Of a DNA stretch of 48,659 bases, positions 9,401 through 40,247 are shown piece by piece (positions within the stretch are counted from its first letter, which is position 1; each line of letters opens with the position of its first letter). The translations under genes and the position numbers were made by a program. The notes under the pieces were generated by a model. The model was not told the origin of the DNA. It searched no databases and saw nothing but the letters and a program-made list of their open reading frames with translations. This DNA comes from a virus, in IMG/VR virus record IMGVR_UViG_3300009507_000028, positions 1 to 48,659 of that record; one strand, given 5' to 3'.

Positions 9401-12400
9401 AATGGATGTTATATGGTACAAGAAACGCGGGTGTTGACTTATATTATAACGGGTCGGTTCAGCTTGAAACTGAAAACGGATACGGATACGCAAGAAATCA
9501 AATGCGCTCTCCAATCTTTTATGACTCAAACAGTACTTCTTACTATGGCAACTTTGCAAGTACATCTAGATTTAATATTGTTAACCTCAACACGTTACAA
9601 TTTAATGGTTTAACATTCACAAACCCAGAAGTTGGTATTTGGTATGAATACGCGTCAAGCTATGGTAGTAGCTATAATCAACTCTATACTCGCTTAGGGC
9701 GTCAGCAAAATTCTGATAGAACTACAATCATTGAATATTATTTCACTCAAAACTGGAATGGTTTTGGGCAAGTTGGTGGTAAAATTTATGTTAGACGAGG
9801 TTCTGGATCTAACAAAATGGGTATCACCCACGTTCCTAATGAAGTTAATATGTATCATACTACAGCCGGAAGTAATTTAGCAAATGCTCCTGAAGTATAT
9901 GTTGATAATTCTAATTACGTTTGGATTGGTATGCCATCCGGCGCAGATGCTGATGCAAAAATATATTTTAGATATGTACAAAAGGCTGGTTTTGAAGAAG
10001 GATTTTATTTCGGTAACCATTATCAAAATTCTGCAATTACACAAGCGGGCGGCGCCACCTTAGCACACGCAGGACCAATTGGCCCAGGCATTCACTGGAA
10101 TGTGGGTGTTAATAATGCGTCAGCTGATTTTGCAGGTGGGCCATATAGTTATGGAGGGTTTGGTTATCTTCACGCAAATGGAGTTTATGTTAGTGGAAAA
10201 GTGCAAGCTCAAAACAATACTTCAAGATACTTAGAGTTAACTGGTAACTCTCATTTAACTAGTCTTGATCTGTTTGGCAATCTCCGCATAGACAACGGCA
10301 ATGAAATACAACTTGACACATCAAGTGGTAATACTCGTGGATACATTGAGGCAACTGAAACCAACGATGCGCATTTAATTATTGCTACATCAGGCGGCGA
10401 AGACATTTCGTTTAGAGATGGTGGAATAGGTGGTCAATGGAATATGATCATTCGCGGAGATGGTGACGTTCTTACAAACAGAAACCATTATGCTCAGGCA
10501 TTTTATGATCGTAACGACTCGGCTCGCTACGTAAATCCAGCTGGTACTTCTGAAATGGGTACTATACGAGCTGATCGTTTTGATATGCGTGATATGGGCG
10601 ATTTTATTACTTTTTATGGTGATGATAATACAAACCATTCTATATCATCTCGTAATAATGCCGGCGACGCATCTGACGATATTCGTATTAACACATACGG
10701 AAGCTTGTGGATTAACTTAGATTCAAACAACAATAATACTTCAGGCGCTGATTTTAGAATTGGCCGTCATGGTGGCGCAACTGGTTCCATTGCTCAAACC
10801 GGTTTATTTGATGTTTACGGCGACTCGTTGTATGCTTACAGTGCTTATAGTTTCCGTTCACCAATCTTCTATGACTCCAACGACACAACTTATTATACAA
10901 ATCCGGCTAGCACATCAGTAATGAACACGCTTGATGTTCGTAGCGAAGTGTATAACGATGGTTGGTTCCGTAACGATACAGGTGGCCGCGGTCTTTACAG
11001 CACAGCACACGCAATGCATTGGTATGCAACCGATGATAACTATTGGGATCTTTCTCATAACGACGATAGCGCAGCAATTGGTATTCGATTAAGAGGTACT
11101 TATGACGGTACAATTCGCGGTTATCTTTATGCCGAGTCTGATAACGATTTTGGTCTATTAAATAACAGTGGTTCATGGAGACTTCGGGTTGTTGCCGGTG
11201 ATTGGATTGACGCTGCTGGGGGAAGTGTTCGTGCTAAAATATTCTACGATCGTGATAACACTGGTTATTATTTTGATGGTGCTTCAACTTCACGCTCGAA
11301 CTACCACAGAATTAACAACCTATATGACTCACAAGAACGTAGATACACCGCCCCTAATGGTGGTACATATACTACAACAACGAGCTCTGTAACTGGCGCA
11401 ATTCGTATTAGAATGCCAACCAATCGGTTTAAATCTAATACAATGTTGAAGTTCAAAGTTTCTGTTTATGAATACTCAACAGGTAGAACTCACGAATTTT
11501 TGATCTCTGGCTACAATAACAACAACGCTAGCCAAACATGGTACAACGAAGCTGCAACTCAGTTAACGGACGACAACCGTGGCGCATATACAATTCGTTG
11601 GGGTGGTAACGGAACTGATAACATTGTTTGGATTGGTGAAACCAACAGTACTTGGTCTTATCCGCAGGTTCACGTTCAGTGGGTTGACGTTGGTTATTCT
11701 GGTTACTCGACAAACTGGGGTCAAGATTGGATTGTTGATTTTGTAACATCGTTTGACACAGTAACAAGAACAAGAACCGCATCTTTAGTTTATACTTTAA
11801 ATAACAAAGATAACTGGTCATACGATCTTCGTGGTACATTGTTTTATGATAACAATAACACTGGTTATTATTGTGATCCTGCTTCAACGTCAAACTTTAA
11901 CTCGGTATTAATAAATCGCCTTCGCCTTGATGATGGTGGTGTTAATGGGCATCTTTATACTGGGGATACGTATTTAGATATTGCATACGGCGCATCTGGC
12001 GGTGGAGGTATTCGTTTATATGATAACCAAGATGTACTTCAAGGTTACTGGTACGGTAACGGTGCCGGTGAGCATGGCTTCTTAGATAATGATGGAAGCT
12101 GGGCAGTTCGAGTTCGAACCGGAACCAACTCTATGCTGTTCTATACTGACGGCAATCAAGAATTTGAAATTCACACGACGTATACATATTCGCCCGGCTC
12201 GTCGAGAGCACCTATTTTCTATGATAGTAATGACACAACCAAATATACTGATCCTGCTGGCACCTCACAGATGTATAGGATTAGCCAATTAGATCGTTTA
12301 ACATTTGTTTCTGGTCCATACATTGATGACGGCGGCGAGGATAATAGGCTAAACTTTTATACTACTGATACCGACAACGGGCAGTTTTATTTTACTGAAG

Positions 12401-16954: not shown

Positions 16955-17698
16955 ATGGCTCAGCCTACAAGCAAAGAAGAATTTAAAGATTACGTCCTTA
17001 GAAAATTAGGCGCACCGGTTATTGAAATAAACGTATCCGAAGAGCAAATAGACGACCGTGTAGATGAAGCTGTTTCCTTTTGGAGAGATTATCATTATAA
17101 CGGAAGTCAACTTGTTTATTTAAAACACGCTATTACGCAGGATGATATTGATAACGGTTACATTACGCTTCCCACACGACTTTTAGGTATATCAAAAGTA
17201 TTTGATTTACAGACTTCTATCAGCGCAGGTGTTGGAATGTTCAATGTTCAATACCAATATACTTTAAACAACATAAGAGATATTACTGGATATAATATTC
17301 AAAACTATTATATGACTATGTCTTATATTGAATTCTTACAAGAAATGCTTGTAGGAAAACCTTTAATAAGATTTAACAAACATGTGAATAAGCTATACGT
17401 TGATGTTGACCAAAAGATTTGGACTGTCGGCGATTTTATTATTATTGAAGCTTATGATATCATTGACCCAGGTGAATATGCTGAAGTTTGGCAAGATCGG
17501 TGGTTGCAAAATTATACTGCAGCATTAGTAAAAGAAAATTGGGGTGCAAACCTTACAAAATTTGTCGGTATGCAATTAGTCGGTGGTGTAACTTTTAACG
17601 GCGAACAGATTTTACAAGAAGCAAGAGAAGAACGTCAGCGAATGGAAGAAGAAGCTGTTAACTCGCTTCAACCACTCACATATAATTTTATTGGATAA
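16955..17698 (+). CDS. 13: Neck protein gp13 (head completion)
   Basis: 247 residues, somewhat shorter than T4 gp13. The N-terminal SKEEFKDYVLRKLGAPVIEINVSEEQIDDRVDEAV followed by YITLPTRLLGISKVF is characteristic of the family. In T4, gp13 and gp14 form the head-neck ring that seals the filled head and joins it to the tail. TATAAATA at 16914-16921 lies 34 bases upstream and starts the late virion operon 13-14-15. Three bases separate its stop from gp14. Confidence 0.92.
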   Translation: MAQPTSKEEFKDYVLRKLGAPVIEINVSEEQIDDRVDEAVSFWRDYHYNGSQLVYLKHAITQDDIDNGYITLPTRLLGISKVFDLQTSISAGVGMFNVQYQYTLNNIRDITGYNIQNYYMTMSYIEFLQEMLVGKPLIRFNKHVNKLYVDVDQKIWTVGDFIIIEAYDIIDPGEYAEVWQDRWLQNYTAALVKENWGANLTKFVGMQLVGGVTFNGEQILQEAREERQRMEEEAVNSLQPLTYNFIG

Positions 17699-17701
17699 GT
17701 C

Positions 17702-18409
17702 ATGGCTACGAATCCCTATTTCCGAAACTACGGTAACTTTAACGAACAAAACTTAATAGACGATTTAGTCATTGAGTCAATTAAAATGTATGGTGTTGAC
17801 ATTGCATACATACCAAGAAACTTTGACTCTATTGACAATATCTTAAATGAAGATGATACCTCAACCTTCGGTGGTGATTTAACAACACAAGGTGGTAACA
17901 ACTATAGCATTGTTTACGATATGGAAATGTATGTTAAGAGTGTTGATGGTTTTGAAGGAGAAGGGGATTTCTTAAGTAGATTTGGTTTACAAATACGAGA
18001 TCAAGTAACGTTTAGCGTTGCATATAGAACTTTTGAACGTTTTGCTACTCGCTTAGATCCTGACCAAACAAGACCAAATGAAGGTGATGTAATTTACTTT
18101 CCACTTAATGATAAAATGTTTAAAGTTATGTTTGTTGAACATGAGTCAGTATTCTATCAACACGGAGCGTTACAAGTATATGATTTGCGCTGCGAATTGT
18201 TTGAATATTCTGGCGAACGTTTCCAAACAGGTCGTTACGAAATTGACCACCACTTTGATGATGTTGATATTACACAGGCAACTACTTTAACTCAATTGGC
18301 AAATACAGACCCAGTTGCAAAAAACGTTTACTTTGAAGCTGAAGCTGATAGTGTTCTTGACTTCTCAGAAATAGATCCATTCAGTGAAAACATTAGTATA
18401 CCGGATTAA
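17702..18409 (+). CDS. 14: Neck protein gp14
   Basis: 235 residues, close to T4 gp14. It begins ATNPYFRNYGNFNEQNLIDDLVIESIKMYGVDIAYIPR, the recognisable family start, and contains FNLND-type beta segments (VIYFPLNDKMFKVMFVEHE). It partners gp13 in the neck and acts as a docking site for the tail terminus. Gene order 13-14-15 with gaps of three and five bases supports the call. The Asp/Glu-rich C-terminus is ordinary for the group. Confidence 0.92.
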   Translation: MATNPYFRNYGNFNEQNLIDDLVIESIKMYGVDIAYIPRNFDSIDNILNEDDTSTFGGDLTTQGGNNYSIVYDMEMYVKSVDGFEGEGDFLSRFGLQIRDQVTFSVAYRTFERFATRLDPDQTRPNEGDVIYFPLNDKMFKVMFVEHESVFYQHGALQVYDLRCELFEYSGERFQTGRYEIDHHFDDVDITQATTLTQLANTDPVAKNVYFEAEADSVLDFSEIDPFSENISIPD

Positions 18410-18414
18410 TATAA

Positions 18415-19314
18415 ATGGCAATAGCAAACTACTTTTACAATCAAACAACAAGAAAATATGTTGCCATCTTTGGTACACTATTTAATCAGTTGTCTATTCA
18501 GCGCGTGAATGCGCAAGGAACAACTTTTCAAACTGCAATTGTTCCATTATCATATGCTCCTTTTCAAAAAATACTTGCAAGAGTTGAGCAAGATGCAAAT
18601 CTTAATCGCCAGTCGGCTATTACATTACCGCGGATGTCTTTTGAAATTACATCTATGCAATATGACGGCGAACGTAGGATTTCAGTAAGACACAAGATAC
18701 CAAAAACATTAAGAGAAAGTGACTCCTCTTTAAATTACGTTTATGCAGGAGCTCCATATAACTTAGAATTTTCATTGTATATCATGGCAAAATATCAAGA
18801 AGATGCAACTAAAATAGTTGAACAAATTATACCATTCTTTCAACCTGACTTTACAGTAAGTGCAAAACTAATTGAAAATCTTCCACCTTTAGACGTACCT
18901 ATTATTTTAAACAGTGTAGTGAACGAAGAATTATATGAAGGCGATTTTACTGAAAGACGAACAGTAATGTACACTCTTAACTTTACGTTAAAAGGAATGT
19001 TTTACGGACCAGAACGGACCAAAAAAGTTATTAAGTTTATTGATACTCAATATGCAACAGATACGGCAGATGATTCTCCTTTTGAAGAAAGTACTGAAAC
19101 GTTTGTTGTTGACCTTGCAAATAGCGCAGTAGGTTGGGCAGACGTTGATGTAACTGATAACTGGGCTGCAAACACTGTATTCCAAGGTAGTGGCTTATAT
19201 GGGAATAGCGCTCCAGTCGAACTTGACATCTTCATATCTAATACGGATCTTGATAGTGGCAACACCAGCATTGATTTGGAATCAGGTGGCATTGCAATTG
19301 ATGACTTAGATTAA
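18415..19314 (+). CDS. 15: Tail completion / sheath stabiliser protein gp15
   Basis: 299 residues. The N-terminus (ANYFYNQTTRKYVAIFGTLFNQLSIQR) and the core (PRMSFEITSMQYDGERR) are typical of gp15, which forms the hexameric terminator ring on the tail tube and sheath and contacts the neck. The last about 80 residues are an acidic, low-complexity extension (DTADDSPFEESTE; NTDLDSGNTSIDLESGG). In T4 gp16 follows directly; here three inserted genes or fragments intervene. Confidence 0.9.
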   Translation: MAIANYFYNQTTRKYVAIFGTLFNQLSIQRVNAQGTTFQTAIVPLSYAPFQKILARVEQDANLNRQSAITLPRMSFEITSMQYDGERRISVRHKIPKTLRESDSSLNYVYAGAPYNLEFSLYIMAKYQEDATKIVEQIIPFFQPDFTVSAKLIENLPPLDVPIILNSVVNEELYEGDFTERRTVMYTLNFTLKGMFYGPERTKKVIKFIDTQYATDTADDSPFEESTETFVVDLANSAVGWADVDVTDNWAANTVFQGSGLYGNSAPVELDIFISNTDLDSGNTSIDLESGGIAIDDLD

Positions 19315-19341
19315 TCAATACAGATAATAGGAAAAACTCAA

Positions 19342-22300
19342 ATGGCACAAACATTACGATTTAGAAGAGGCACAACCGCAGAGCTTTCATCTGAAGCCGG
19401 TATTGAAGGAGAAATTTTCATTGATACCACAAAGAAGACTGTGGTTGCGATGGACGGAGTAAATAATGGTGGATATCCGTTAGCAAGATTTGATGATATC
19501 CCAACAAACATAAGTTCATTTACAAACGATGCTGGATTTATCACCGCGGTTGGAACTTTTTCTGGTAATTATAATGATTTGACTAACTTGCCTTCTTTGT
19601 TCGATGGCGATTATAACTCTTTGTCAAATATTCCTGCACCAACTCCTGGACCACAAGGTACTGATGGAGTTCAAGGTACAACAGGTGAAACTATTCAAGG
19701 TCCGCAAGGAACTAATGGTTTACAAGGTACATTCGGCACACAAGGTGTTCAAGGATTTGGTGGTGCCAATGGCGGTATTGGACCAACAGGTCTTCAAGGT
19801 TTAACTGGAGCTACAGGAGCAACTGGAGCGCAAGGTACATCAGGGTCTACAGGTTCAACCGGTATTCAAGGTTTAACTGGAGCTACAGGTATTCAAGGTT
19901 TAACAGGATCTGGCGTTCAAGGTTTAACTGGAGATACAGGTGTTCAAGGTATTACAGGGTCTACAGGTATTCAAGGACCTTCTGATGGCGCTGACGGCGC
20001 AGTTGGTGCGCAAGGTATTCAAGGTACAACTGGGACAGCAGGGCCCGCCGGTATTCAAGGACCTTCTGATGGCGCTGATGGTGTACAAGGTACTACGGGG
20101 TCGGCTGGTCCAACCGGATTGCAAGGTGTAACTGGTGTTCAAGGCTTAACAGGAACTGGCGTTCAAGGTACTACGGGGTCTGCTGGTCCAACCGGATTGC
20201 AAGGTGCAACTGGCCTTCAAGGAACCGAGGGTGAAACTTCTGTTAGTGAAAGCGATAACCTTAATTGGACTGGCGATCATCAATGGACTGCAGGAAACGG
20301 TAATTGGATTAAAGTTGATAGCTCAAACGCATATATGACGTTTGATGATAATGCTTATTTACAATTTGGTGCAAATACTGGAGCTGTTGACGCAAAAATG
20401 TTTACAACAGGTAGCGGATTTGGTATATTAACTCAAAAAGGTAATTTCAATTTAAATAACTCTGGCAGCGGTTCAGACGCAGGCGATGTTATTATAAGAG
20501 CTCGCAATTCTGGCGACTCTGCTATGGTTGAATACGTCAAAGCAGATCATGCACTTGGCGGCGTAGATTTACATCATGACGGTGTACTTAAACTAAGAAC
20601 CACATCCACTGGGATTGATGTTAATACAAATAAAATATATAATTTAACAGATCCTGCCGCAGCACAAGACGCAGCTACAAAAGCATATGTTGATGCAGAA
20701 ATTGCAGGTCTTTCTGATAGCGCGCCAGCAACATTGGATACTCTAAATGAATTGGCTGCAGCATTAGGAGACGATGCAAACTTTGCAACAACTGTGACAG
20801 AAAGCATTGCAACTAAACTTCCACTTGCTGGCGGAACAATGTCAGGAGATATTGACGGCGCAGGAAACAAAGGACTTTTTGCTAACGTATATTCAGCACT
20901 CGGCGATTTGCCAAGTGCATCTACATATCATGGTATGTTTGCCCATGTTCACGGAACAGGTAAAGGCTATTTTGCACATAGCGGTAGCTGGGTTGAATTG
21001 GCCAATGCGGCAACTACATTAGCAGGTTATGGAATTACTGATGGATTAGCAGCAGGCGGGGCCTTAACTGGCAGTAGTTTGGCATTCCCAGATGGCGCCA
21101 CCATTACAGAATTTAGTACTGACAATACACTCGGAGGCAATAGTAATGCAGCAGTTCCAACTGAGGCGGCAGTAAAAGGATATGTAGATACTAATGCCAT
21201 GCCTGTATCTGGCGGAACCTTTACAGCCGAAATTACTGTTGACGGCGATGTTACTGTAAATGGTAATCTAGATGTAGCGGGTGGTGCAAGTGATGGTGGT
21301 AAGATTACTCTCAACTACGGTCAGACAGGTACGCCTTCTTCTTCAAGTACCAACTGGTCTTACTTAGAAGTAGAACGTGGTACTTTGCCGAACGTAAGTA
21401 TTCGTTGGCATGAAGGGTTTGATCGTTGGGAATTCACTAACAATGGTAGTACTTTTACAGAACTTGGCGCCCAAACAATACCAACATTAGATGCTGTAAT
21501 GGGAGTGGGTGATGAGACGAACAACCCTCTAACACTCTACAGAAATACTGATGGTAATATCAACGAAGGTACTCTGAAGTTTGAAACTAGGGATACTACG
21601 CCAACTCTTGGTCAGGCAATAGGTGACATCCAATGGTATGGCGATACTGATACAGATCCAATCACCAGTACTCTTGGTGAGATGGCCAGAATCAGCGCAA
21701 ACAAACATTCGAATAATTACACTGGTGGTGTAGACGTTGGGCAAATTGTATTTGGTGTAACAAATAACACGACACTGACACCCGCCTTGAAAATAGGTGA
21801 CACACCAGCTGGTGGAAATCCTACTTCAACAACATGGGCAACTCACTTCCAAAACTTACCTGTGTGGATGGAAAACTCACTTAGAGTTTATGAAACAGTC
21901 GTTGATACAAATGATATTACTTCTGATGCGAATATCTCAGGGTTAAAATTAACCGCAATAGATGGTGTGGGTAATTATAAAGACCGTGTTAACTTATCTC
22001 ATCAAAATAATATTCTTAGATTACGAGTTACTGATCGTGTTAATGATGACGAATATACAGAACTGATTGCAAGACCATCTGCTACAGCGATGCTTTCGGT
22101 TAACTATAAAGCGTCAGGTGGTTCTACGTCTTCGTATGATGTCTGGACTGATTATGACGCCATACAAAAAGTAAGAACTGAACTAACAGACGAAAACACC
22201 CTACACAAATTTGGTAGTTATGCAAATACTGAATACATAACTACAAGTACTGACTTCGGTGGTTTTAATGGTGGATCTTCTGGTAATGCTGATCTTGTGC

Positions 22301-23217
22301 CAAGTAACGGCCAGAATGGTTCTCTCGCTTTCTTTAATTGGACAGATGCCTTAAATGGTACTGCAGGGGCAAACAGATATATCCCTGCAGGTCACGCTGA
22401 AGAAGTTGTACATGGGATGGGTATCCTTCGTGACGGTGGACAACACCCTTCAGGTGCACCAAGATGGGATCCATTTGGCGGCCCAGATTTTAGGGTAAGT
22501 GTAGATAATTCGGGCGGTAGTGCAACAGGTCTTGGTGGACTTGTTTATATGTTTGGTGGTACATCAATTTCAAGTACTGATACTCCTGTCACAACAATTA
22601 TTACAAACCAAAACTATAACGCAACTGATGCTACGATCATTTCGCAGACGAGTTATAGAACAGGTCAAAACACAACTACTTTCGATCATGAAGAATATGC
22701 AAGAGTAACTGTAACGGCAGTAGATGTGACCAGTGGAACAGAGGACGCAAAGATAGTTCATGCCGTACAAAAGGCAGGAACTCTTACTGATACGCTTACC
22801 GTCGATCCAGATGGTGTTACTCTTACTGATCTTACTGTAAGTGGAAAAGCATCATTCAATGGGATAACAACTGAAAAAACAAATGCACTAACTGGTGCAA
22901 CTGGTGTTGTTACACACAACTTAAATGATGGTGCGGTATTCGATCATACAAGTTTGGCTGCAGACTTTACTGCAAACTTCACAAATGTTCCAACTACGAA
23001 CAGTAGAACTATCGGTGTTGCATTGATTCTAAGTCAAGGTGGTACTGCATACATGCCTACTGCAGTTCAGATTGATGGTGTTGCACAGACTATTCTGTGG
23101 CAAGGTGGATCTGCACCGTCTGGTACTGCAAGTGGTACTGATATTGTAAGCTTTACTTTGATTAGATCTACTGCAGGTGCTTGGAAAGTTATTGGTTCTG
23201 CAACGAGTTATTCATAA
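19342..23217 (+). CDS. Collagen-like tail fibre protein, 1291 aa
   Basis: N-terminal module [29 protein letters not shown] resembles the attachment start of the 1015-3414 fibre. Residues about 103-296 are a collagen-like G-x-y stretch ([30 protein letters not shown]), expected to form a trimeric rod. This is followed by beta-rich segments ([31 protein letters not shown]) and a C-terminal domain ([34 protein letters not shown]). It probably forms a thin fibre ending in a receptor-binding tip. Its stop overlaps the next gene's ATG by one base (TAATG), indicating translational coupling. It sits between gp15 and gp16, a place where T4 has no fibre gene. Confidence 0.8.
19648..20232 (+). repeat. 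Collagen-like coding repeat tract
   Basis: Encodes about 195 residues of G-x-y triplets in the 1291-residue fibre. At the DNA level it contains near-identical longer units, e.g. about 29 bases shared by 19966-19994 and 20050-20078, and about 42 bases shared by 20086-20127 and 20164-20205. Such units can expand or contract by recombination and would change fibre length. Confidence 0.85.
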
Positions 23218-24578
23218 TGCCTAGAATATCAAGTTTAACAGGACAACAATTATCAGGTATTGGTCTTAGAAGAGGCCTATATGATGCAGTAAGTCTTAGT
23301 TTACAAATCCCAAATAGATTTTTAGACCGCAACGACACTGTCGCATCTAGCGACTATTTTGGATATGCAGCTGACATAAGCGGTAACTATGCAATCATAG
23401 GATGTCGAGGAAGTTATGGTAATTTTTGTGTTATATGGGATATAGTAAACGGCACAGAAGAACATTATTTAACTAATCCTTCTACCATACCAGCCGCCCC
23501 TTCTGGCGCCACGGCGGATGATAACTTTGGAAGTGCGGTATCAATCCACGGAGCCTACGCAGCAGTGGGCGCTGCATATGAAGATCCAGCAAGTGGTACT
23601 GATTATGATACTGGAGCCGTATATCTTTACAGTGTAGCTTCAGGAAATGTTGTAAGAACTTTTACAAACCCAAACGCAGTGGGTACAGGTATAGGTGACA
23701 GGTTCGGGACTAGTGTATGCTTGTATGAAAATCCTTCTAACAGTACTCTGTACTTAGCAGTCGGCGCAATAGAAAAAGATGCCACTAACCATTATTTTAA
23801 TTCAGGTGTTGTATATGTTTTTAATGCATCAACTGGTTCTTTACTTCATACCATCTACAATCCAAACTCATATGGTACCTCCCAAAGCGATTATTTTGGG
23901 TTTGGAGGACAGCCAAGTATTGATATGTGCGGAGACTATATGATAGCTGGTGCGAGATGGGAAGATAAGGATAATTCTGGAACAGAGGTCTCGTTCGCGG
24001 GCGCCGCATACATATTTAGTTTAAGTACAGGAAATCTAGTATACAGTCTAACAAATACTGATTCTTTGGATAGTGGTGCGGGCGATCAGCTTGGTACGTC
24101 CGTTGCCATAAATGAAGATTATGCTGCGGTGGGCTCGCCAGGCGAAGAGGATGGCGGGTCCTATTCCGGAAAGGTGACTATTTATAGACTAAGCGATGGC
24201 GCAAAAATAAATACTATTTTTAATCCCGACGCTTATGGTACACCCGCCGGTGATTATTTTGGCCATTCTTGTTCTTTATCAGGAAGATATTTAGTTGTTG
24301 GAGCATATCGAGAAGAAAGCGTACAGGCATATCCTGGAGATGGGCATGTATACGTTTTTGATGTAGAAACTGGAGATCAATTAGTTTTCAGCGGTGATTC
24401 AGCAACATCATCAGTCAATAACCCTAACCCCGGCGGGGCGGACTACTTCGGACAATGGGTTGCTATAGACGGTCGTAATATTATTGTAGGCGCAGAACGC
24501 TATGATGGTCAAAATACTGAAGGTACTAATATATTTCAAGCTGGCGCCGCCTATGTATTTAAACTAGTTAGGAGATAG
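23217..24578 (+). CDS. Integrin-like FG-GAP beta-propeller protein
   Basis: The ATG at 23217 overlaps the preceding stop by one base; a longer frame from TTG at 23181 has no support. The 453-residue product has about seven repeats of the pattern (D)YFGxxxxxxGxYxxVGA followed by GAVYLYxxxTGN (e.g. DNFGSAVSIHGAYAAVGA; DRFGTSVCL; DYFGHSCSLSGRYLVVGA; DYFGQWVAIDGRNIIVGAERYD). This is the FG-GAP repeat that builds a seven-bladed propeller, as in alpha integrins and bacterial adhesins. The start RISSLTGQQLSGIGLRRG has no signal peptide, so it is probably a virion part. A role as fibre tip or glycan adhesin working with the collagen-like fibre is inferred from coupling and order. Confidence 0.72.
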   Translation: MPRISSLTGQQLSGIGLRRGLYDAVSLSLQIPNRFLDRNDTVASSDYFGYAADISGNYAIIGCRGSYGNFCVIWDIVNGTEEHYLTNPSTIPAAPSGATADDNFGSAVSIHGAYAAVGAAYEDPASGTDYDTGAVYLYSVASGNVVRTFTNPNAVGTGIGDRFGTSVCLYENPSNSTLYLAVGAIEKDATNHYFNSGVVYVFNASTGSLLHTIYNPNSYGTSQSDYFGFGGQPSIDMCGDYMIAGARWEDKDNSGTEVSFAGAAYIFSLSTGNLVYSLTNTDSLDSGAGDQLGTSVAINEDYAAVGSPGEEDGGSYSGKVTIYRLSDGAKINTIFNPDAYGTPAGDYFGHSCSLSGRYLVVGAYREESVQAYPGDGHVYVFDVETGDQLVFSGDSATSSVNNPNPGGADYFGQWVAIDGRNIIVGAERYDGQNTEGTNIFQAGAAYVFKLVRR

Positions 24579-24579
24579 T

Positions 24580-24712
24580 ATGTTTACCCATGTAGATCAT
24601 GGTATTGAGTTGCCGAAAATAACAAGGAAAACGACAGAGAAGGGACGGAAGATCTTTCCCTTCAACAAATGTAGACTTGTCGTCTTCAAATGGTAACGTA
24701 TCGACAAACTAA
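24580..24712 (+). pseudogene. Truncated N-terminal fragment of MGME1-like exonuclease
   Basis: A 38-codon frame (ATG 24580, TAA 24694-24696) begins MFTHVDHGIELPKITRKTT, matching the first residues of the intact exonuclease at 39576-40247 (MFNHVEHGVVLPKLTRETT) and continuing into GRKIF against GRKYF. Beyond that the match leaves the frame: in the +1 frame the next codons read FPSTNVDLSSSNGN and stop at 24712, which loosely resembles YPSITTVLGVLNKEG. This suggests loss of a few codons plus a frameshift and then truncation. All catalytic motifs are absent, so no nuclease activity is expected. At the DNA level the two copies have diverged clearly, so it is not a fresh duplication. Confidence 0.7.
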
Positions 24713-24739
24713 TATATATAATATAAAGTAGGATGAAAC

Positions 24740-25186
24740 ATGAGTGATGAACACATTTCTAAAGCGTTAGGTTTAACACCGCTTTCAGAATTAAACGATG
24801 AAATGAAAAGCGTACAAGAAGTGCAATCAACGGAAGTGCAAAACATAGAAAAGTTTGAAGTATTACCTACTGAAGGTAGTGACGAAAACCTTAACGATAT
24901 GGAACTTGCACGTCAAAATGTTAAAAACATTATTGAACTCGGAGATGACGCAGTTAAAGAAATGGTTGAAATAGCTAAGCAATCAGAGTCTCCTCGGGCC
25001 TTTGAAGTTGTGTCGACTTTAATGAAAACATTACTTGACGCAAACAAAGATTATGTTGATATTTCTACCAAAAAGAAATTTGCACAGGATGATAAACCTG
25101 AAAAGGAAACAAATGTCACGAATAATAACTTGATAGTCTCAACTGCAGATTTACTTAAAATGATTAAAGGTGATGATAATGTTTGA
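24740..25186 (+). CDS. 16: Terminase small subunit gp16
   Basis: 148 residues, near the T4 size. The central part (MELARQNVKNIIELGDDAVKEMVEIAKQSESPRAFEVVSTLMKTLLDANKDYVDI) has the helical pattern of T4-like gp16, which forms an oligomeric ring that recognises or stimulates packaging of concatemeric DNA. It ends NNNLIVSTADLLKMIKG, as is usual in marine relatives. It overlaps gp17 by eight bases when gp17 starts at 25179. Confidence 0.88.
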   Translation: MSDEHISKALGLTPLSELNDEMKSVQEVQSTEVQNIEKFEVLPTEGSDENLNDMELARQNVKNIIELGDDAVKEMVEIAKQSESPRAFEVVSTLMKTLLDANKDYVDISTKKKFAQDDKPEKETNVTNNNLIVSTADLLKMIKGDDNV

Positions 25187-26777
25187 GATGATGAAAGGTT
25201 ATCTCGGCAATAATAATCTCAAAAGAGTTGGCGAGCAATTTGAATGGACTCCTGACATGTTAAAGGAGTATATGAAATGCGCTGAAGATCCGATATATTT
25301 TGCTAAAGAATATATTAAAATTGTGCATGTTGACCGTGGCCTAGTTCCTTTTCAAATGTATCCTTATCAAGAAAACATCACAAAAAAGATTACAGAAAAT
25401 AGACGAGTGGCAGTATTAACTGCGCGCCAGTCTGGTAAAACAACTACTGCAATGGCAATCATTTTACATTATGTATTGTTTAATGAATTTAAAACTGTAG
25501 CCATCTTGGCAAATAAAGGAGATGCTGCAAGAGAAGTTATGGCTCGTGTTAAGTTAGCATTTGAGGCTTTACCTAAATGGTTGCAGCAAGGAGTTGAAGA
25601 ATGGAACAAAGGAAATATTGCACTTGAAAACGGTTGTCAGGTTTTGGCTGGAACGACATCGTCATCAGCAATTCGTGGTAAGTCAGTTAATTTTCTATAT
25701 CTCGATGAGGTTGCATTCATTGAAGGATACGACGATTTTTTCGCATCTGTTTATCCTACTATCTCGTCTGGCGAGTCAACAAAACTTTTAATGACTTCAA
25801 CTCCTAATGGTCTAAACCATTTTTGGAAAACTTGCAAAGGCGCAAGAGAAAAAACTAATGGTTATGAATACGAAGAAGTTATGTGGCAAGATGTTCCAGG
25901 GCGAGACGAAAAATGGAAAGAAGAAACACTCGCTGCATTAGATTACGATGAACAGAAATTTAGACAAGAATATTGTTGCGAGTTTTTAGGATCCTCAGGA
26001 ACGTTGATTGATGGATCCAAACTAAAACAATTAGCATATGATAGACCTATACACGAACAAGAAAACACATTTCAATATTTTAAACCTGAAAAAGACCACA
26101 GTTATGTTATGACTTGTGATGTATCTCGAGGAAAAGGTTTAGACTATTCAACTTTTAATATTATAGATATTAGCAAAATGCCGTATCAACAAGTATGCAC
26201 ATTTCGTGACAATTATATTAGCCCAATTGATTTCGCTTCATTTATATATAGAATAGGTAATCTATATAATGAAGCTGCTGTTCTTATAGAAATTAATGAT
26301 ATAGGCGAACAAGTTTCAGATGTTTTATTAATGGATTATGGATACGAAAATTTACTTTATTCCGAAAGCGCAGGCGCGAAAGGCAAACGAATTTCGTCTG
26401 GATTTGGAGGAAGAAAACTTGATAATGGAATACGAACTACCAAGACTGTAAAAGCTCAAGGTTGTTCTATGTTGAAAATGCTCATTGAGCAAGATCAACT
26501 TATACTAAGAGATTATAATACTTTGCAGGAATTATCACGTTTTTCCAAAAAGGGTCCATCTTATGAAGCTGAGCCCGGAGCACATGATGATTTAGTAATG
26601 AATTTGGTTTTATTTGCTTGGTTATCTGACCAAGATTATTTTAAAGAATTAACTGATATTAATACTCTTCAAGCACTGCGCGAAAAGACTGATGCGCAAA
26701 TTGATGAAGAATTACTCCCCTTCGGATTTATAGATGACGGTGGGGAATTGTGGGAAGACGAAAACATCAGGTTCTAA
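25179..26777 (+). CDS. 17: Terminase large subunit gp17 (packaging ATPase and nuclease)
   Basis: I place the start at ATG 25179 because AAAGG lies eight bases upstream; GTG 25170 and ATG 25173 are in frame but poorly spaced. The 532-residue protein has the Walker A motif ARQSGKTT (82-89), Walker B FLYLDEVAF (172-180, Asp176-Glu177) and motif III TSTPNG (206-211). The RNase H-like nuclease domain shows DVSRGKGLDYSTF (Asp314), IEIND (Glu371) and the late HDDLVMNL acid pair. It powers DNA translocation into the prohead and makes headful cuts. It overlaps gp16 by eight bases. Confidence 0.96.
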   Translation: MFEMMKGYLGNNNLKRVGEQFEWTPDMLKEYMKCAEDPIYFAKEYIKIVHVDRGLVPFQMYPYQENITKKITENRRVAVLTARQSGKTTTAMAIILHYVLFNEFKTVAILANKGDAAREVMARVKLAFEALPKWLQQGVEEWNKGNIALENGCQVLAGTTSSSAIRGKSVNFLYLDEVAFIEGYDDFFASVYPTISSGESTKLLMTSTPNGLNHFWKTCKGAREKTNGYEYEEVMWQDVPGRDEKWKEETLAALDYDEQKFRQEYCCEFLGSSGTLIDGSKLKQLAYDRPIHEQENTFQYFKPEKDHSYVMTCDVSRGKGLDYSTFNIIDISKMPYQQVCTFRDNYISPIDFASFIYRIGNLYNEAAVLIEINDIGEQVSDVLLMDYGYENLLYSESAGAKGKRISSGFGGRKLDNGIRTTKTVKAQGCSMLKMLIEQDQLILRDYNTLQELSRFSKKGPSYEAEPGAHDDLVMNLVLFAWLSDQDYFKELTDINTLQALREKTDAQIDEELLPFGFIDDGGELWEDENIRF

Positions 26778-26803
26778 ACTATATTTCTGTAAATCAAATA
26801 ATT

Positions 26804-26811
26804 TATAAATA
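26804..26811 (+). promoter_or_regulatory. T4-type late promoter box before gp18
   Basis: TATAAATA in the 83-base gap between gp17 and gp18, 50 bases before the gp18 ATG. Confidence 0.8.
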
Positions 26812-26860
26812 GAAACAGTGATATGAACTAAACGCGTTTAAATACATAAAGGAGAAAAAT

Positions 26861-28735
26861 ATGGCTTTTTCTGTAAGTCCTTCCGTCATTGTTCGTGAAG
26901 TGGATGCATCACAAGCCGTGCCAGCCGTTGCGACATCGCCAGCTGCCATTGTTGGTGTATTTCAATGGGGACCAGTTGACGAACCTATTCTAGTTTCATC
27001 TGAAGATGAGCTAGTGGATCGTTTTGGCAAGCCTTCAGCGGATACATACGAAACATTTTTTACTGCGGCAGATTATCTTGCATATGCAAATGCATTGTGG
27101 GTAGTTCGCGCAGACAATAATTCAAACACAGCTATTGCAGCAAGTGGCGCCTTTTCGGCAAAGCACCCTGGTGCTTTAGGAGATAACATTGACGTACATT
27201 GGGTTACCTCAACAGGATATGAAAATGCAGTAATTGCAGTAGGTGATATCCCAGCGAATAAAATTTCCAATGCTGCAGTTCCACAAACAATTCCATTTAA
27301 TTCCGCTGCTGTAACTTTTGAAGTTGCTCCTGCAGACAGGATTACTGCAATTGGCGCAGGAGATGTACTTGTAATAGGTAACGATAGCTCAGGCTATGTA
27401 AATGTTACAGTTGCAACTATTGTAGAAACAGAACTTAACGATGGCGCAGTGCCAACACCGAATGTAACAGGATACGAATACGCAATTACATTTGTAGGCA
27501 AATACACACTCGCCGAAGAAGATCTTACCATTCTTACGATTACAAAAAAGTGGGGGCAAAACAATTTCTTTGCTTCTGCACCAAGTGCTGGAAGTATTCA
27601 CATTGCAGTTGTTGACCGCGGCGGAAATATTTCAGGAACAGCAGGACAAGTACTTGAACTGTTTGAAGATGTTTCAACCACAGCAGGCGCACAGCTTCAG
27701 GACGGTTCGCAAAACTATTGGGTAGACGTTATTACCAATCAATCAAGCTGGGTTAAAGTTGCTAATTCGGCAGTTGTAGGAACAGCAAATACTGCTGTAA
27801 CCTCATACGAAGTAATGGCAAACGGTAGTGATGCTCAAACTGAAAGCAATGCAACTTTGGCCGCAATTGGTAAAGGTTGGGATTTATTTAAGAGTGGAAA
27901 CGAAATTGATATTTCATTCTGCTTACAAGGTAAAGGCGATGATAGCGCAAACCGTGCAAACTATATTATTTCTAATATCGTTGATAGTAGAAAAGATTGT
28001 GTTGCATTTGTTTCCCCATCAGCATCAGATGTTGTTAGCGAAGTTAAATCAAATACACAACTTAAAAACGTAATTGCATATCGTAATGCGCTTCAGAATT
28101 CATCTTATTGGTTCATGGATAGCGGTTATAAATATCGTTACGACAAATACAACGATACTTATCGTTACACACCTTTGAATGGCGATATGGCAGGTTTGGC
28201 AGCAAGAGTTGAACCGTGGGAATCTCCAGCAGGTTATAGAAAAGGTGTTATTAAAAACGTAGTAAAACTAGCGTTTAACCCAAACAAATCGCAAAGAGAT
28301 CAACTGTATACTTCAGACATTAACCCAGTTATGGCTCAAGTAGGTCAAGGTATCGTATTATTTGGAGATAAAACTGGTTACGGATTGCCAAGCGCGTTTG
28401 ATCGTCTTAATGTTCGTAGGTTGTTTATTGCTATTGAGAAATCAATTGCAACAGCGGCTACATCGTTCTTGTTTGAACTAAACGACGAATTTACTCAAAC
28501 ACAGTTTAAGAACATTGTTGATCCGTTCCTACGTGATATTCAAGGAAGACGTGGCATTACTGATTTCCGAGTCGTATCTGACTCAACCGTGAATACTCCT
28601 GAAATCATAGACCAAAACAAGTTCCGTGCTAACATTTTTGTTAAACCAGCCCGTTCAATTAACGTTATAGAACTTACGTTCGTAGCAACAAGAACTGGAA
28701 TTGAGTTTGATGAAATCGTTGGTCAGATCGTCTAA
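26861..28735 (+). CDS. 18: Tail sheath protein gp18
   Basis: 624 residues, close to T4 gp18. It starts SPSVIVREVDASQAVPAVATSPAAIVGVFQWGPVDEP, the standard sheath start, and ends with the conserved C-terminal domain (DPFLRDIQGRRGITDF; IFVKPARSINVIELTFVATRTG). It forms the contractile tube around gp19. A perfect TATAAATA late box at 26804-26811 and AAAGGAG precede it. Confidence 0.96.
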   Translation: MAFSVSPSVIVREVDASQAVPAVATSPAAIVGVFQWGPVDEPILVSSEDELVDRFGKPSADTYETFFTAADYLAYANALWVVRADNNSNTAIAASGAFSAKHPGALGDNIDVHWVTSTGYENAVIAVGDIPANKISNAAVPQTIPFNSAAVTFEVAPADRITAIGAGDVLVIGNDSSGYVNVTVATIVETELNDGAVPTPNVTGYEYAITFVGKYTLAEEDLTILTITKKWGQNNFFASAPSAGSIHIAVVDRGGNISGTAGQVLELFEDVSTTAGAQLQDGSQNYWVDVITNQSSWVKVANSAVVGTANTAVTSYEVMANGSDAQTESNATLAAIGKGWDLFKSGNEIDISFCLQGKGDDSANRANYIISNIVDSRKDCVAFVSPSASDVVSEVKSNTQLKNVIAYRNALQNSSYWFMDSGYKYRYDKYNDTYRYTPLNGDMAGLAARVEPWESPAGYRKGVIKNVVKLAFNPNKSQRDQLYTSDINPVMAQVGQGIVLFGDKTGYGLPSAFDRLNVRRLFIAIEKSIATAATSFLFELNDEFTQTQFKNIVDPFLRDIQGRRGITDFRVVSDSTVNTPEIIDQNKFRANIFVKPARSINVIELTFVATRTGIEFDEIVGQIV

Positions 28736-28765
28736 TAAATAGATTTAATTAAAGGAGAATAGAAA

Positions 28766-29299
28766 ATGGCATTTAACATCAACCAGTTCAAATCAGAACT
28801 CGTCGGTGGCGGTGCACGTCCTACGCTATTCCAAGTTCAAATCACTAACCCGATTGACACAGGCGCAGATTTTAAAGTACCATTTATGGTTCGTTCTGCA
28901 GGCATTCCTGAGTCAATCGTTGGTCAATATGTTGTACCTTACTTCGGTCGTGAAGTAAAGTATGCAGGTGATAGAACGTTTGCGGACTGGGCGGTCACAG
29001 TTATCAACGATGAAGACTTTGCAATTCGCAACGCGATGGAAGCATGGTCAAACTTCATTAATTCCCACGACTCCAATTCAAGAGGATTACCGCAGCAGTA
29101 TAAGTCTACTGCATCGGTTACTCAATATAGTAAAGATGGATCACCACTTCGTACATATATTTTCGAAGGATTGTTTCCAACTACTATTGATGGTATTGCC
29201 TTGGATTGGTCTCAGCAGGATACAATTGAAGAATTCGGCGTCACATTCCAATATGATTTATGGAGAGTTGAAGGAATTACCGGCGTACCGACAACCTAA
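28766..29299 (+). CDS. 19: Tail tube protein gp19
   Basis: 177 residues. The start FNINQFKSELVGGGARPTLFQVQITNP and the segments VPYFGREVKYAGDR and SVTQYSKDGSPLRTYIFEGLFPTTI are strongly conserved in T4-like tube proteins. It forms stacked hexamers that guide DNA ejection. Strong AAAGGAG site; AATAAATA at 28734-28741 is a one-mismatch late box overlapping the gp18 stop. Confidence 0.96.
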   Translation: MAFNINQFKSELVGGGARPTLFQVQITNPIDTGADFKVPFMVRSAGIPESIVGQYVVPYFGREVKYAGDRTFADWAVTVINDEDFAIRNAMEAWSNFINSHDSNSRGLPQQYKSTASVTQYSKDGSPLRTYIFEGLFPTTIDGIALDWSQQDTIEEFGVTFQYDLWRVEGITGVPTT

Positions 29300-29323
29300 T
29301 TTTTATTATGAGGATATGAAGTT

Positions 29324-30847
29324 TTGAAGATATTCGGTTACGAAATCAAAAGAGAAGAGGAAGAGACTCCAGTAGTCTCTTTCGCTGAACCGTCTAATGA
29401 AGACGGCGCAATTACTGTGGGAAACGCCGTTGGCGGGTTTTACGGCACGCTCCTCGATATGGAAGGCACAGCAAAGACTGAGTCTGAATTAGTTACAAAA
29501 TACCGTGGCATGGCACTGCAGCCTGAAATTGTTTCAGCTGTAGACGAAGTCATTAACGAAGCAATTTCTATAGGAACGGATGATAAAGTTGTAGAGCTTG
29601 TGCTCGATGACACTGATCTTCCTGACAAAGTCAAAAAGAAATTAAGTGAAGAATTTGATAATGTTTTATCATTATTAGATTTTTCAAATGCAGCATACGA
29701 TATTTTTCAAAAGTTTTACGTTGATGGCAGACTTAATTATCATGTCATTATTGATAAAGAAAACTTAAAAGATGGTATAAGGGAACTGCGATATGTAGAT
29801 CCTCGCAAGTTAAAACTTATACGTGAAGTTGATAAAAGGCAAAAAGATCCACATTCTGGTATTCCAGTTAAAACACTAAAAAGCGAATATTATATGTATT
29901 CCGAAAACGGTTTTACTGGTGATAATGCTGGTGGTAATGCAAGTACTGGTACTCAAGGATATAGAATTTCTAAAGACTCTGTTGCCCGTGTTACTTCAGG
30001 ATTAATGAACGAGAATAATTCTTTAGTTCTTTCATACCTACATCCGGCAATTAAGCCTTTAAATCAATTAAGAATGCTTGAAGATGCAACAGTCATTTAC
30101 ACTCTTACACGAGCTCCTGAAAGACGAATTTTTTATATTGACGTTGGGAACCTTCCTAAATCGAAAGCTGAGCAATATATACGAGACATGATGGTTCGCC
30201 ATAAAAACAAACTGCAATATAACTCAGCAACTGGTGATATTACTGATAGCCGTAAAATGATGACTATGACTGAAGACTTTTGGTTTCCACGCCGAGGTGG
30301 TGAAAGATCTACTGAAGTTGATACATTAGTTGGCGGTTCTTCACAAGCGCTATCGTCTGATGAAAATATGCAATACTTTCAGCGTAAATTGTTTAAAGCG
30401 TTAAAGGTTCCACTAACAAGGCTTGAGCCTGAAACAATGGCAACCTTCGGCCGTACATCTGAAATCACTCGTGACGAACTGAAGTTTAGCAAATTTATTC
30501 GTCGTGTAAGATCTAGGTTTTCTTCAATCTTTACAACAATTTTAGAAAAGCAAGTTATCCTTAAAGGTATCATGACCCCTGAGGAATATAAAGAAATTAA
30601 AAATAGTATTCGTTATGACTTTATGCAAGATAATTATTTTAACGAATTAAAAGAAGCAGAAATACTCCGCGAAAGAATGGCGACATTACGTGATGTTGAA
30701 GATCATGTTGGAGTATACTATTCAAGAGAATGGGTTATTCGTAACATCCTACAGTTAAGTGAAGACGACTCTGAGGAAATGAAAACGCAAATGGAAGCTG
30801 AAAAAGAAGAATTTGGCGATCCGAATGACCAAGAACAGCAGAATTAA
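29324..30847 (+). CDS. 20: Portal vertex protein gp20
   Basis: 507 residues, near T4 gp20. TTG start with GAGGA nine bases upstream; no in-frame ATG is available nearby. Conserved portal segments include LQPEIVSAVDEVINEAI, RELRYVDPRKLKLIREV, TLTRAPERRIFYIDVGNLPKSKAEQY and DYFPRR-like WFPRRGGERSTEVDTL, plus the acidic C-terminus. It forms the dodecameric portal through which gp17 packs DNA and on which the prohead starts to assemble. Confidence 0.95.
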   Translation: MKIFGYEIKREEEETPVVSFAEPSNEDGAITVGNAVGGFYGTLLDMEGTAKTESELVTKYRGMALQPEIVSAVDEVINEAISIGTDDKVVELVLDDTDLPDKVKKKLSEEFDNVLSLLDFSNAAYDIFQKFYVDGRLNYHVIIDKENLKDGIRELRYVDPRKLKLIREVDKRQKDPHSGIPVKTLKSEYYMYSENGFTGDNAGGNASTGTQGYRISKDSVARVTSGLMNENNSLVLSYLHPAIKPLNQLRMLEDATVIYTLTRAPERRIFYIDVGNLPKSKAEQYIRDMMVRHKNKLQYNSATGDITDSRKMMTMTEDFWFPRRGGERSTEVDTLVGGSSQALSSDENMQYFQRKLFKALKVPLTRLEPETMATFGRTSEITRDELKFSKFIRRVRSRFSSIFTTILEKQVILKGIMTPEEYKEIKNSIRYDFMQDNYFNELKEAEILRERMATLRDVEDHVGVYYSREWVIRNILQLSEDDSEEMKTQMEAEKEEFGDPNDQEQQN

Positions 30848-30885
30848 ATAAATAAACAAAATGAGATTAAACCAGGAGATCTACA

Positions 30886-31779
30886 ATGAAGTCCTTTAAA
30901 AATTATATGGCTGAAGTAGCAGAACCAAAATCCTCAGAGGAAAAGAAGTTCAAGGATATGCATCAGCCTGAGGTTAAACCTCACCCAGTTGCAGAACCAA
31001 CTCAGCATAAAGCTGAAAAGCCAAAGGCAAAACGCAAAGCTGACCAAGAAGGTGATGCTAATTACGATAAAGCATATACTACAGAAGACGCAGAGCAAAT
31101 TGATGAGATCTCAAAAGGTTTAGCAGGTCGCTATATTAAAAAGGCGCAAATAGATACAGCCCATGCTGGTGATCAAATTGCTACAGGAAGTATGGGCCAA
31201 ATGGGTGCATCTCCTGATGTTAAAAAAGGTTATGAAAAGCAACGCCGAAAAGGTATTGCTAAACTCGTTCGCCGTCGTGTAGGAACAAGAGATGCCGTTT
31301 CTAAACTAACAGGAACAGCAAGAGTTCCGGCAAGAGAGGAAGTTAGCGAGGTTACTCAATCTGCCATAAAAAAGCCTACGAACATTACAGGACCAGACGG
31401 TAAAGTTCGTACTGTGATGAAAAAAACAAAAGATATAGCTACTGATGATCACGGTCAAGAAAAGATCCGTGAAAACAAAAAAGCTGATTTAATGAAAAAA
31501 TTAGCAAAGGCAGCAGCTACAACGGAAAAAGGTAAAAAAGCAGTAACATTGAAAAAAGCTCCTTGGGAGAAAAAAGAAGATCTTGATGAAGCTGTAAAAG
31601 TAGGCAATATGAAATTAAAAGATGGATCTTCAATGAAAGTTACGAAAGAAGATGCAAAGCTTTTAAACCAGATGTTTAAAGGGTTGAACAATCAAAACCG
31701 CAAGCAAATGGAAAAAGTTATGATGATGGACAAAAGCGGATTCAACGAAATTGTTGGATTTGCAAGGGAAGCCATGTAA
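30886..31779 (+). CDS. Probable prohead core / head protein (gp67-68 position)
   Basis: 297 residues, highly charged (many Lys, Glu, Ala) and low in hydrophobics, as expected of a scaffold or core protein. It lies where T4 has genes 67 and 68, between portal and protease. The segment EQIDEISKGLAGRYIKKAQ is a motif I associate with head proteins of marine T4-like phages, and the C-terminus (DAKLLNQMFKGLNNQNRKQMEKVM) is a compact helical domain. No sequence identity to T4 gp67 is obvious. Its stop overlaps the next ATG by one base. Confidence 0.6.
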   Translation: MKSFKNYMAEVAEPKSSEEKKFKDMHQPEVKPHPVAEPTQHKAEKPKAKRKADQEGDANYDKAYTTEDAEQIDEISKGLAGRYIKKAQIDTAHAGDQIATGSMGQMGASPDVKKGYEKQRRKGIAKLVRRRVGTRDAVSKLTGTARVPAREEVSEVTQSAIKKPTNITGPDGKVRTVMKKTKDIATDDHGQEKIRENKKADLMKKLAKAAATTEKGKKAVTLKKAPWEKKEDLDEAVKVGNMKLKDGSSMKVTKEDAKLLNQMFKGLNNQNRKQMEKVMMMDKSGFNEIVGFAREAM

Positions 31780-32024
31780 TGGCTTTTGTGGCGGTCCTAG
31801 GCTCAAATAGTATTTGGGAGTACGATAATGCTGCCACGGCCGCGGGCTCCGACACATATAATGATGCTAACGGGACCGTCACAGCAGGTGTTCGTGCTTA
31901 TACTCCACCAGGAGGAAATGTACAATATACATACATAAGGTGTAGGAAAGCAGGCGAAACAATTATACGAGGCGAATTGAATAAAAACTTTTATGACAAC
32001 AGAAATGCTAATGGTATACCTTAG
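31779..32024 (+). CDS. Small protein of unknown function in the head operon
   Basis: 81 residues, translationally coupled (TAATG) to the preceding core-like gene. It reads VLGSNSIWEYDNAATAAG, then TYIRCRKAGETIIRGELNKNFYDN, suggesting a small all-beta fold without membrane segment or zinc site. The position between portal and protease suggests a minor head or core component, but I do not recognise the family with certainty. Confidence 0.5.
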   Translation: MAFVAVLGSNSIWEYDNAATAAGSDTYNDANGTVTAGVRAYTPPGGNVQYTYIRCRKAGETIIRGELNKNFYDNRNANGIP

Positions 32025-39550: not shown

Positions 39551-39579
39551 AATATAATCTATTTCATAATGAATGTCAA
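39551..39579 (-). promoter_or_regulatory. Early sigma70-type promoter for the 39525-38328 operon
   Basis: TTGACA (39574-39579), 17-base spacer, TATATT (39551-39556) on the minus strand. The -35 box overlaps the last codons of the exonuclease gene. Confidence 0.87.
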
Positions 39580-40247
39580 TGGTGTTCTTTCATTTCTTTG
39601 TACTTTTTTCGTACTGCAATGAAATGCTCTAAATAATCATAAGTGTTGACTTTAAAGATTTGTGGTTCTGAACCGTCTACAGTTATCAAGATTACACCTT
39701 GCTTAATCGGTATGGACGTTCGTTCATAAAATGCTGCTGCGTAAAAAGATGCCTGAATAAAATAATTGGTAATCCATTCTTCTTTTTTTGGTTTCCTTGA
39801 TGTTTTAAAATCAACAATAGAAAGCTGACCGTCAAACTCAGCAATACAGTCAACCTGTCCTGCGCATTTTAGTCTATCAGAATATAAGAACTCTTCCTGA
39901 AACCAAACATTATTTAATCGTTGGTCAAGTATAGATTTCAAATCATTAAAGGACTGGAGATTTGAAGGCATTGCACCTTTATTCCAATCCTCTTTATTGT
40001 CTAAATAATCTTCTGCAAGTTTGTGGACCGCAGTACCACGAGTTGCAGCTTGTTGTGATATTCTGTTGGCTTCTGCTTCGCCGACTCTTTGTCGCCATGC
40101 AAGAATGCCTTCTTTATTCAATACACCGAGAACCGTTGTGATTGACGGATATGCATTACCTTCCGGTGTAAAGTATTTTCTACCACTTTTAGTGGTTTCG
40201 CGTGTTAATTTGGGAAGCACCACGCCGTGCTCAACATGATTAAACAT
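39576..40247 (-). CDS. PD-(D/E)XK exonuclease, MGME1/Cas4-like
   Basis: 223 residues. After the N-terminal SGRKYFTPEGNAYPSITTVL come RGTAVHKLAEDYL (His75), CAGQVDCIAEF (Asp133), IVDFKTSRKPK (Asp146, Lys148) and IQASFYAAAF (Gln165), the standard order of RecB-type single-strand exonucleases such as mitochondrial MGME1. It probably trims DNA ends in recombination-dependent replication. It closes the FmdB-like/PhoH/PAAR gene run. A truncated relative lies at 24580-24712. Confidence 0.88.
   Translation of the reverse strand: MFNHVEHGVVLPKLTRETTKSGRKYFTPEGNAYPSITTVLGVLNKEGILAWRQRVGEAEANRISQQAATRGTAVHKLAEDYLDNKEDWNKGAMPSNLQSFNDLKSILDQRLNNVWFQEEFLYSDRLKCAGQVDCIAEFDGQLSIVDFKTSRKPKKEEWITNYFIQASFYAAAFYERTSIPIKQGVILITVDGSEPQIFKVNTYDYLEHFIAVRKKYKEMKEHH

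Follow-up and report, generated by a model that had tools for sequence, protein, structure and literature searches.

In T4-type phages, the gp37 tips and the gp38 adhesins are shuffled in a modular manner (Tetart 1998 and Trojet 2011, as summarised in PMC3797505). In marine phages, host recognition genes form hypervariable islands (PMC3909814, PMC7029224), and the island genes given in Table 1 of PMC3909814 include terminase subunits and gp38 adhesins. The window analysed here, the whole 48,659-nucleotide stretch of the IMG/VR record IMGVR_UViG_3300009507_000028, is from a T4-like phage whose nearest cultured terminase is found in Sinorhizobium phages, at 59%; DNA like positions 17000-32000 had no match in cultured phages. 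A short exonuclease-like stretch lies in its gap between gp15 and gp16, and comparison of this region with about 300 fetched loci makes it highly probable that the stretch belongs to a scar of two gene scraps, left by a recombination that imported a distal fibre part, an FG-GAP adhesin and the edge of an exonuclease gene. The case belongs to the known shuffling of fibre modules and is sharply resolved, and the change of locus is its less usual feature.

Results

The left landmark of the gap is the gp15-like gene (18415..19314, plus strand; the name was given by the earlier note), which was placed by gene order and homology, and homology to the relatives that were compared at the gp16 locus runs from 17000 to 19045. 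The structural region further upstream contains one ORF of 3196 aa (3451-13041). The fibre gene behind gp15 is a chimera, as judged from the identities along its product. Its proximal part (19342..21255, plus strand; aa 1 to about 638) matches Pfam Mtd_N and Collagen, and, counted per 40 aa up to aa 640, showed an identity of 0.80-1.00 to L003, a gp16-locus relative, versus 0.17-0.45 to L163, a phage with fibre and adhesin genes before its exonuclease. The change of parent in the protein falls between aa 640 and 680. In blastn, the alignments of L001-L005 to the window fibre end at 21254-21255. This holds for the relatives with 97-99% identity in gp16 as a group (L001-L008, and L017, which is partial): in those that extend far enough, homology to the window stops at 21254-21255, and it resumes at 24694, or at 24683 in L008. 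In between, they have another fibre tip, together with an 82-aa gene.

The distal fibre part (21251..23217, plus strand) is L163-like from 21251-21255 and was probably imported. At this left joint, L003 aligns up to 21255 and L163 from 21251, with TTACT as the overlap, and since the identity of L163 in this part is no higher than about 73%, the exact base of the joint is uncertain. The identity to L163 is 88% in DNA at 22842-23263 and extends into the start of the following adhesin gene. For the parts at about 21450-22220 and 22490-22840, none of the fetched loci gave a match in DNA, and the donor cassette is therefore itself a mosaic. The adhesin gene (23217..24578, plus strand), also probably imported, matches Pfam FG-GAP_2 (E 1.7e-43) and starts, like its counterpart in L163, with an ATG that shares bases with the stop of the fibre gene (TAATG). 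Its best full-length relatives, at 38%, are in L227/L228 and lie at the exonuclease locus; they were obtained with other queries, and exact peptide patterns of this adhesin returned no relative among viral contigs. The suggestion of the earlier note that two adhesion genes had been brought into the gap is thus kept for the FG-GAP adhesin and the distal half of the fibre, but not for the proximal fibre, which is native.

Directly behind the FG-GAP adhesin, a 38-codon ORF (24580..24696, plus strand) encodes MFTHVDHGIELPKITRKTTEKGRKIFPFNKCRLVVFKW. Its ATG comes one base after the adhesin stop and is preceded, at a distance of 5 nt, by AGGAG. An exonuclease-like N-terminus had been recognised in this ORF from the letters of the DNA, by its likeness to the intact exonuclease gene of the same window (39576..40247, minus strand). 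The latter encodes an MGME1-like PD-(D/E)XK nuclease (phrog_298, E 2e-75; PDDEXK_1, E 2e-9), which also matched human MGME1 in the PDB with an E of 7e-8. The likeness was confirmed: residues 1-26 of the ORF match the window's own exonuclease at 18/26 positions with a BLOSUM score of 101, far above chance, as 5000 shuffles gave a mean of 23 and a maximum of 52, and a search of the whole record returned the same place (E 4.6e-7). The similarity goes beyond residue 10, since residues 11-38 alone scored 61 as compared with a shuffled maximum of 44. Residues 25-38, on the other hand, scored 14, which is below the shuffled mean of 18.1, and the proposal that the exonuclease match continues in the +1 frame after about codon 25 has to be given up. 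A frame-shifted exonuclease after codon 24 was rejected, as the other frame reads RSFPSTNVDLSSSNGNVSTN followed by a stop, the C-terminus of a glycine-rich adhesin.

Exonuclease genes of other IMG/VR phages, those of L163 and L167 among them, were retrieved by a degenerate pattern for HVDHGIELPKI. L173 was obtained with the L163 exonuclease as the query, and L226, which comes from the record of L173, through the fibre search described below. Positions 24580-24651 (plus strand), the first 24 codons of a putatively foreign gene of the phrog_298 family, are identical in DNA to L226/L173 at 69/72 positions, to L163 at 68/72 and to L167 at 66/72, versus 46/72 to the window's own exonuclease. The DNA had been called well diverged, and this holds only for the comparison with the own gene. 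The alignment to L226 starts 18 bases before the ATG and is continuous over 24562-24651, so the leader of the donor-type exonuclease (24562..24579, plus strand) is also present; leader and codons together are 91% identical to L226 and 89% to L163. Because the similarity starts there, VRR and the stop, with which the FG-GAP adhesin ends, are read from leader DNA. The homology ends sharply at 24651, after codon 24, in the comparison with L163/L167.

These identities indicate that the exonuclease scrap is recent and foreign rather than old, because it is far closer to L226/L173, L163 and L167 than to the own gene. An old duplicate of the window's own exonuclease that has since decayed, the other origin offered by the earlier note, could account for the 18/26 shared residues, but it would leave the far closer foreign genes and the match of the leader to foreign phages without an explanation. 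In addition, the own exonuclease is 100% identical in L081-L084, and these relatives do not have the scrap. We regard such a duplication as extremely improbable. In L081-L084 as in the window, the intact exonuclease is preceded by a PAAR gene and by no fibre. Across L081-L167 and L171-L217, the site upstream of the exonuclease start was seen to hold variable cargo, namely PAAR, fibre with adhesin, or other genes.

The 24 codons share 92-96% DNA identity with intact members of phrog_298, and in this respect the scrap is homologous to the family. The catalytic PD-(D/E)XK region is absent from it, as this region lies at exonuclease residues 126-176 and the scrap stops at residue 24. By its sequence, the scrap is an exonuclease fragment and not a working member of the phrog_298 PD-(D/E)XK family.

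The remaining 14 codons were traced later, through adhesin C-termini. Short-word blastn with 24641-24700 had found only L008 (and L170, on the same contig) beyond words of chance length. In L221-L223 and L226, the adhesin that follows the fibre terminates in RSFPSTNVDLSSSNGNVSTN or nearly so. Positions 24647-24714 match the L221 adhesin end at 62/68 nt, with one mismatch in the first 47 (24647-24693), and 0/2000 shuffles reached this score. Positions 24652..24693 (plus strand; frame RSFPSTNVDLSSSNG) are thus assigned, by the L221 match, to the 3' end of a glycine-rich adhesin gene. Since the exonuclease similarity ends at 24651 and that of the adhesin starts at 24647, the 5-bp overlap GGAAG (24647..24651, plus strand) is the presumed right joint. 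The joint between exonuclease and adhesin, GGACGGAAGATCTTTCC, is present in one record only. The L221 adhesin occupies a gp38-like position and matches Pfam Gly_rich_2 and phrog_4474, which is of unknown function; it has no PDB relative. Every intact adhesin of the L221 type that was found with a known neighbour lies at the exonuclease locus, and a pattern scan found no copy of the adhesin end next to gp16.

The 38-codon ORF thus runs across both scraps and appears to be accidental. A working small gene under selection, the product of which could for example bind or titrate the partners of the exonuclease, would profit from the AGGAG five bases before the ATG and from the start one base after the adhesin stop, by which translational coupling is possible. 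Against it, the 14 final codons come from an adhesin gene in a wrong reading frame, the catalytic region (the PDDEXK match at exonuclease residues 126-176) is missing, and the promoter of the donor gene was left behind, so that we consider a selected peptide very unlikely. No scrap of the exonuclease N-terminus comparable to 24580-24651 was found at any other of about 300 fetched loci. In agreement with this, relatives that carry the short frame as a family of its own, which would have spoken against a scar, were not seen among these loci; the frame is not conserved in relatives, the ORF had no PHROG match, and the 38-aa peptide had no credible match in cultured phages (best E 4, unrelated). 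The donor-type promoter is not in the window's copy, and a promoter scan of the scar gave weak matches only. The simplest reading is that the ORF would be a by-product with a good ribosome-binding site, about one third of which is out-of-frame adhesin DNA, and nothing positive points to a function of the scar itself.

In donor-type phages, sigma-70-like promoter matches were seen between the adhesin and the exonuclease, at L226:3727-3755 (11/12) and L221:6266-6293 (12/12). They read TTGACA-17-TATAGT in L226 and TTGACA-16-TATAAT in L221, both with TG before the second hexamer, and are consensus matches only.

On the right side, the native leader of gp16 (24694..24739, plus strand) is common to L001-L008 and L017, and is followed by the gp16 small terminase gene (24740..25186, plus strand; 97-99% to L001-L008; Pfam DNA_Packaging, phrog_445). 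The first 19 bases of this leader read NVSTN and a stop in the adhesin frame, and NVSAN and a stop or similar in the relatives, and the gp16 leader may itself be an older adhesin end. An 82-aa gene (phrog_6228, of unknown function) stands before gp16 in L001-L007 and L017 and is absent from the window. In L008, the end of the phrog_6228 gene is altered and runs into an adhesin scrap, and behind this gene the adhesin end is joined to gp16 without an exonuclease scrap. L008, which is a separate record, has the window's join between adhesin end and gp16 exactly over 24683-24740. The joint of adhesin and gp16 is not unique to the window, because L008 carries it, and it does not decide the order of events. 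None of the gp16 relatives had an exonuclease scrap upstream of gp16. A full exonuclease gene in the gp15-gp16 gap, which had been proposed as a check, was present in none of the relatives examined, and the donor exonuclease stands at another locus. The gap of other relatives seems by eye to hold unrelated cargo. Methyltransferase-like translated stretches such as GDIVVDIGACIGMMSAGALDRGASKVYMIEGN were seen, also by eye, about 350 bases before gp16 in L039/L042 and about 650 bases before it in L036/L037/L044.

A chimeric region in a metagenome could also be produced by a misassembly that joined two phages, and the whole arrangement is indeed known from a single record, with collagen repeats in its fibre genes. 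However, the longest exact word common to the two parents is 6 bases near the right joint and 8 near the left, and an assembly error is improbable because such words are too short for the usual assembly k-mers. The exact join of adhesin end and gp16 in L008 also speaks against it. We give this explanation little chance.

The source of the cassette was approached through the C-terminal domain of the fibre. A search with this domain returned 60 loci, of which the 11 closest were 83-94% identical, although several of these are near-identical to one another and represent fewer than 11 independent cases. The exonuclease follows the fibre domain at 10 of the 11, the eleventh (L218) ends inside an adhesin of the L163 type, and none of them is at gp16. 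The gene order is fibre, adhesin, exonuclease in L163 and L167, and the fibre C-terminal domain is followed by the exonuclease in L219-L228. In record G002, which has the closest exonuclease, gp15 and gp16 abut with no fibre between them. By these gene orders and identities, the donor type was identified as phages that have an adhesin gene between the fibre and the exonuclease genes (L163, L167, L219-L226). The exact donor, with this FG-GAP adhesin beside an L226-like exonuclease, was not found among the fetched loci.

Discussion

The pieces of the mosaic, the types of their sources and the approximate positions of their joints are shown by the sequence comparisons. The scar of an imported segment, which the earlier note had preferred, is strongly supported by them, with the donor type and both edges placed; one correction concerns the fibre, of which only the distal half was brought in. 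In the donor lineage, the fibre and adhesin genes would have stood directly upstream of the exonuclease gene. A recombination would have carried the distal half of the fibre and the FG-GAP adhesin into the gp15-gp16 gap, together with 90 bases from the start of the exonuclease unit (the 18 nt leader and 24 codons). The left joint would lie within the fibre gene, at about 21251-21255, and would have given the recipient a chimeric fibre with a new tip. At the right joint, the 5-bp GGAAG would link exonuclease codon 24 to the final codons of a glycine-rich adhesin gene, and behind these the native gp16 leader begins at about 24694. Joining by short homology is the probable route.

Two orders of events can be considered within this explanation. 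In the first, an earlier glycine-rich adhesin would have stood before gp16, and the FG-GAP cassette, including its exonuclease edge, would have taken its place. In the second, an unequal exchange at the exonuclease locus of the donor would have joined the exonuclease start to the adhesin end, with a further, intact exonuclease remaining downstream, and a single transfer would then have brought the finished arrangement to the gp16 gap. The single transfer is favoured by the fact that the L226-like exonuclease and the L221-like adhesin are both at the exonuclease locus, and that this adhesin type was found only there. However, the L008 adhesin end at gp16 without the scrap agrees no less well with an adhesin that resided there earlier, and the intermediate was seen at none of about 300 loci. 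We put the single transfer at somewhat below an even chance. Whichever the order, the imported cassette may have persisted through selection for new receptor binding, and the fibre tip and the adhesin would be the part selected.

This locus shows, near the level of single bases, how a phage can gain a new fibre tip and a new adhesin that stood at another place in the genome of a second phage, with no long homology at the right edge. Donor and direction can be read from such scraps. A search for truncated neighbour genes at the edges of cassettes could therefore be used to count how often, and by which route, receptor-binding modules are exchanged in wild phages. As a tentative and rather doubtful extension, the fibre-adhesin cassettes of these marine T4-like phages may move regularly between two docking sites, the stretch before the exonuclease and the gp15-gp16 gap, with scraps of gene ends recording the order of exchange.

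As in the T4-type swaps summarised in PMC3797505, the distal fibre and the adhesin behind it were apparently exchanged while the proximal fibre was kept, and the product is chimeric; a sharp change of parent in the fibre and an adhesin directly behind it were both found here. Judged by that summary, the T4-type swaps concern the distal fibre locus, where corresponding loci recombine through conserved motifs, whereas the cassette here would come from another genome location and have dragged along the start of a neighbour that is not a fibre gene. The donor site precedes the exonuclease gene, whose counterpart in the window is encoded on the opposite strand, the recipient site is the gp15-gp16 gap, and the right overlap is 5 bp. 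The locus also resembles the metaviromic islands and host recognition clusters, which are hypervariable and contain fibre and adhesin genes (PMC3909814, PMC7029224), but those works described the variability by read recruitment or genome comparison, while the present analysis places the joints of a single event almost to the base and names a donor locus. Finally, foreign DNA joined within and beside genes is reminiscent of the mosaic joints made by relaxed or short-homology recombination in PMC3945230. That work concerns temperate phages and Rad52-like recombinases, whereas the overlap at the right joint here is just 5 bases.
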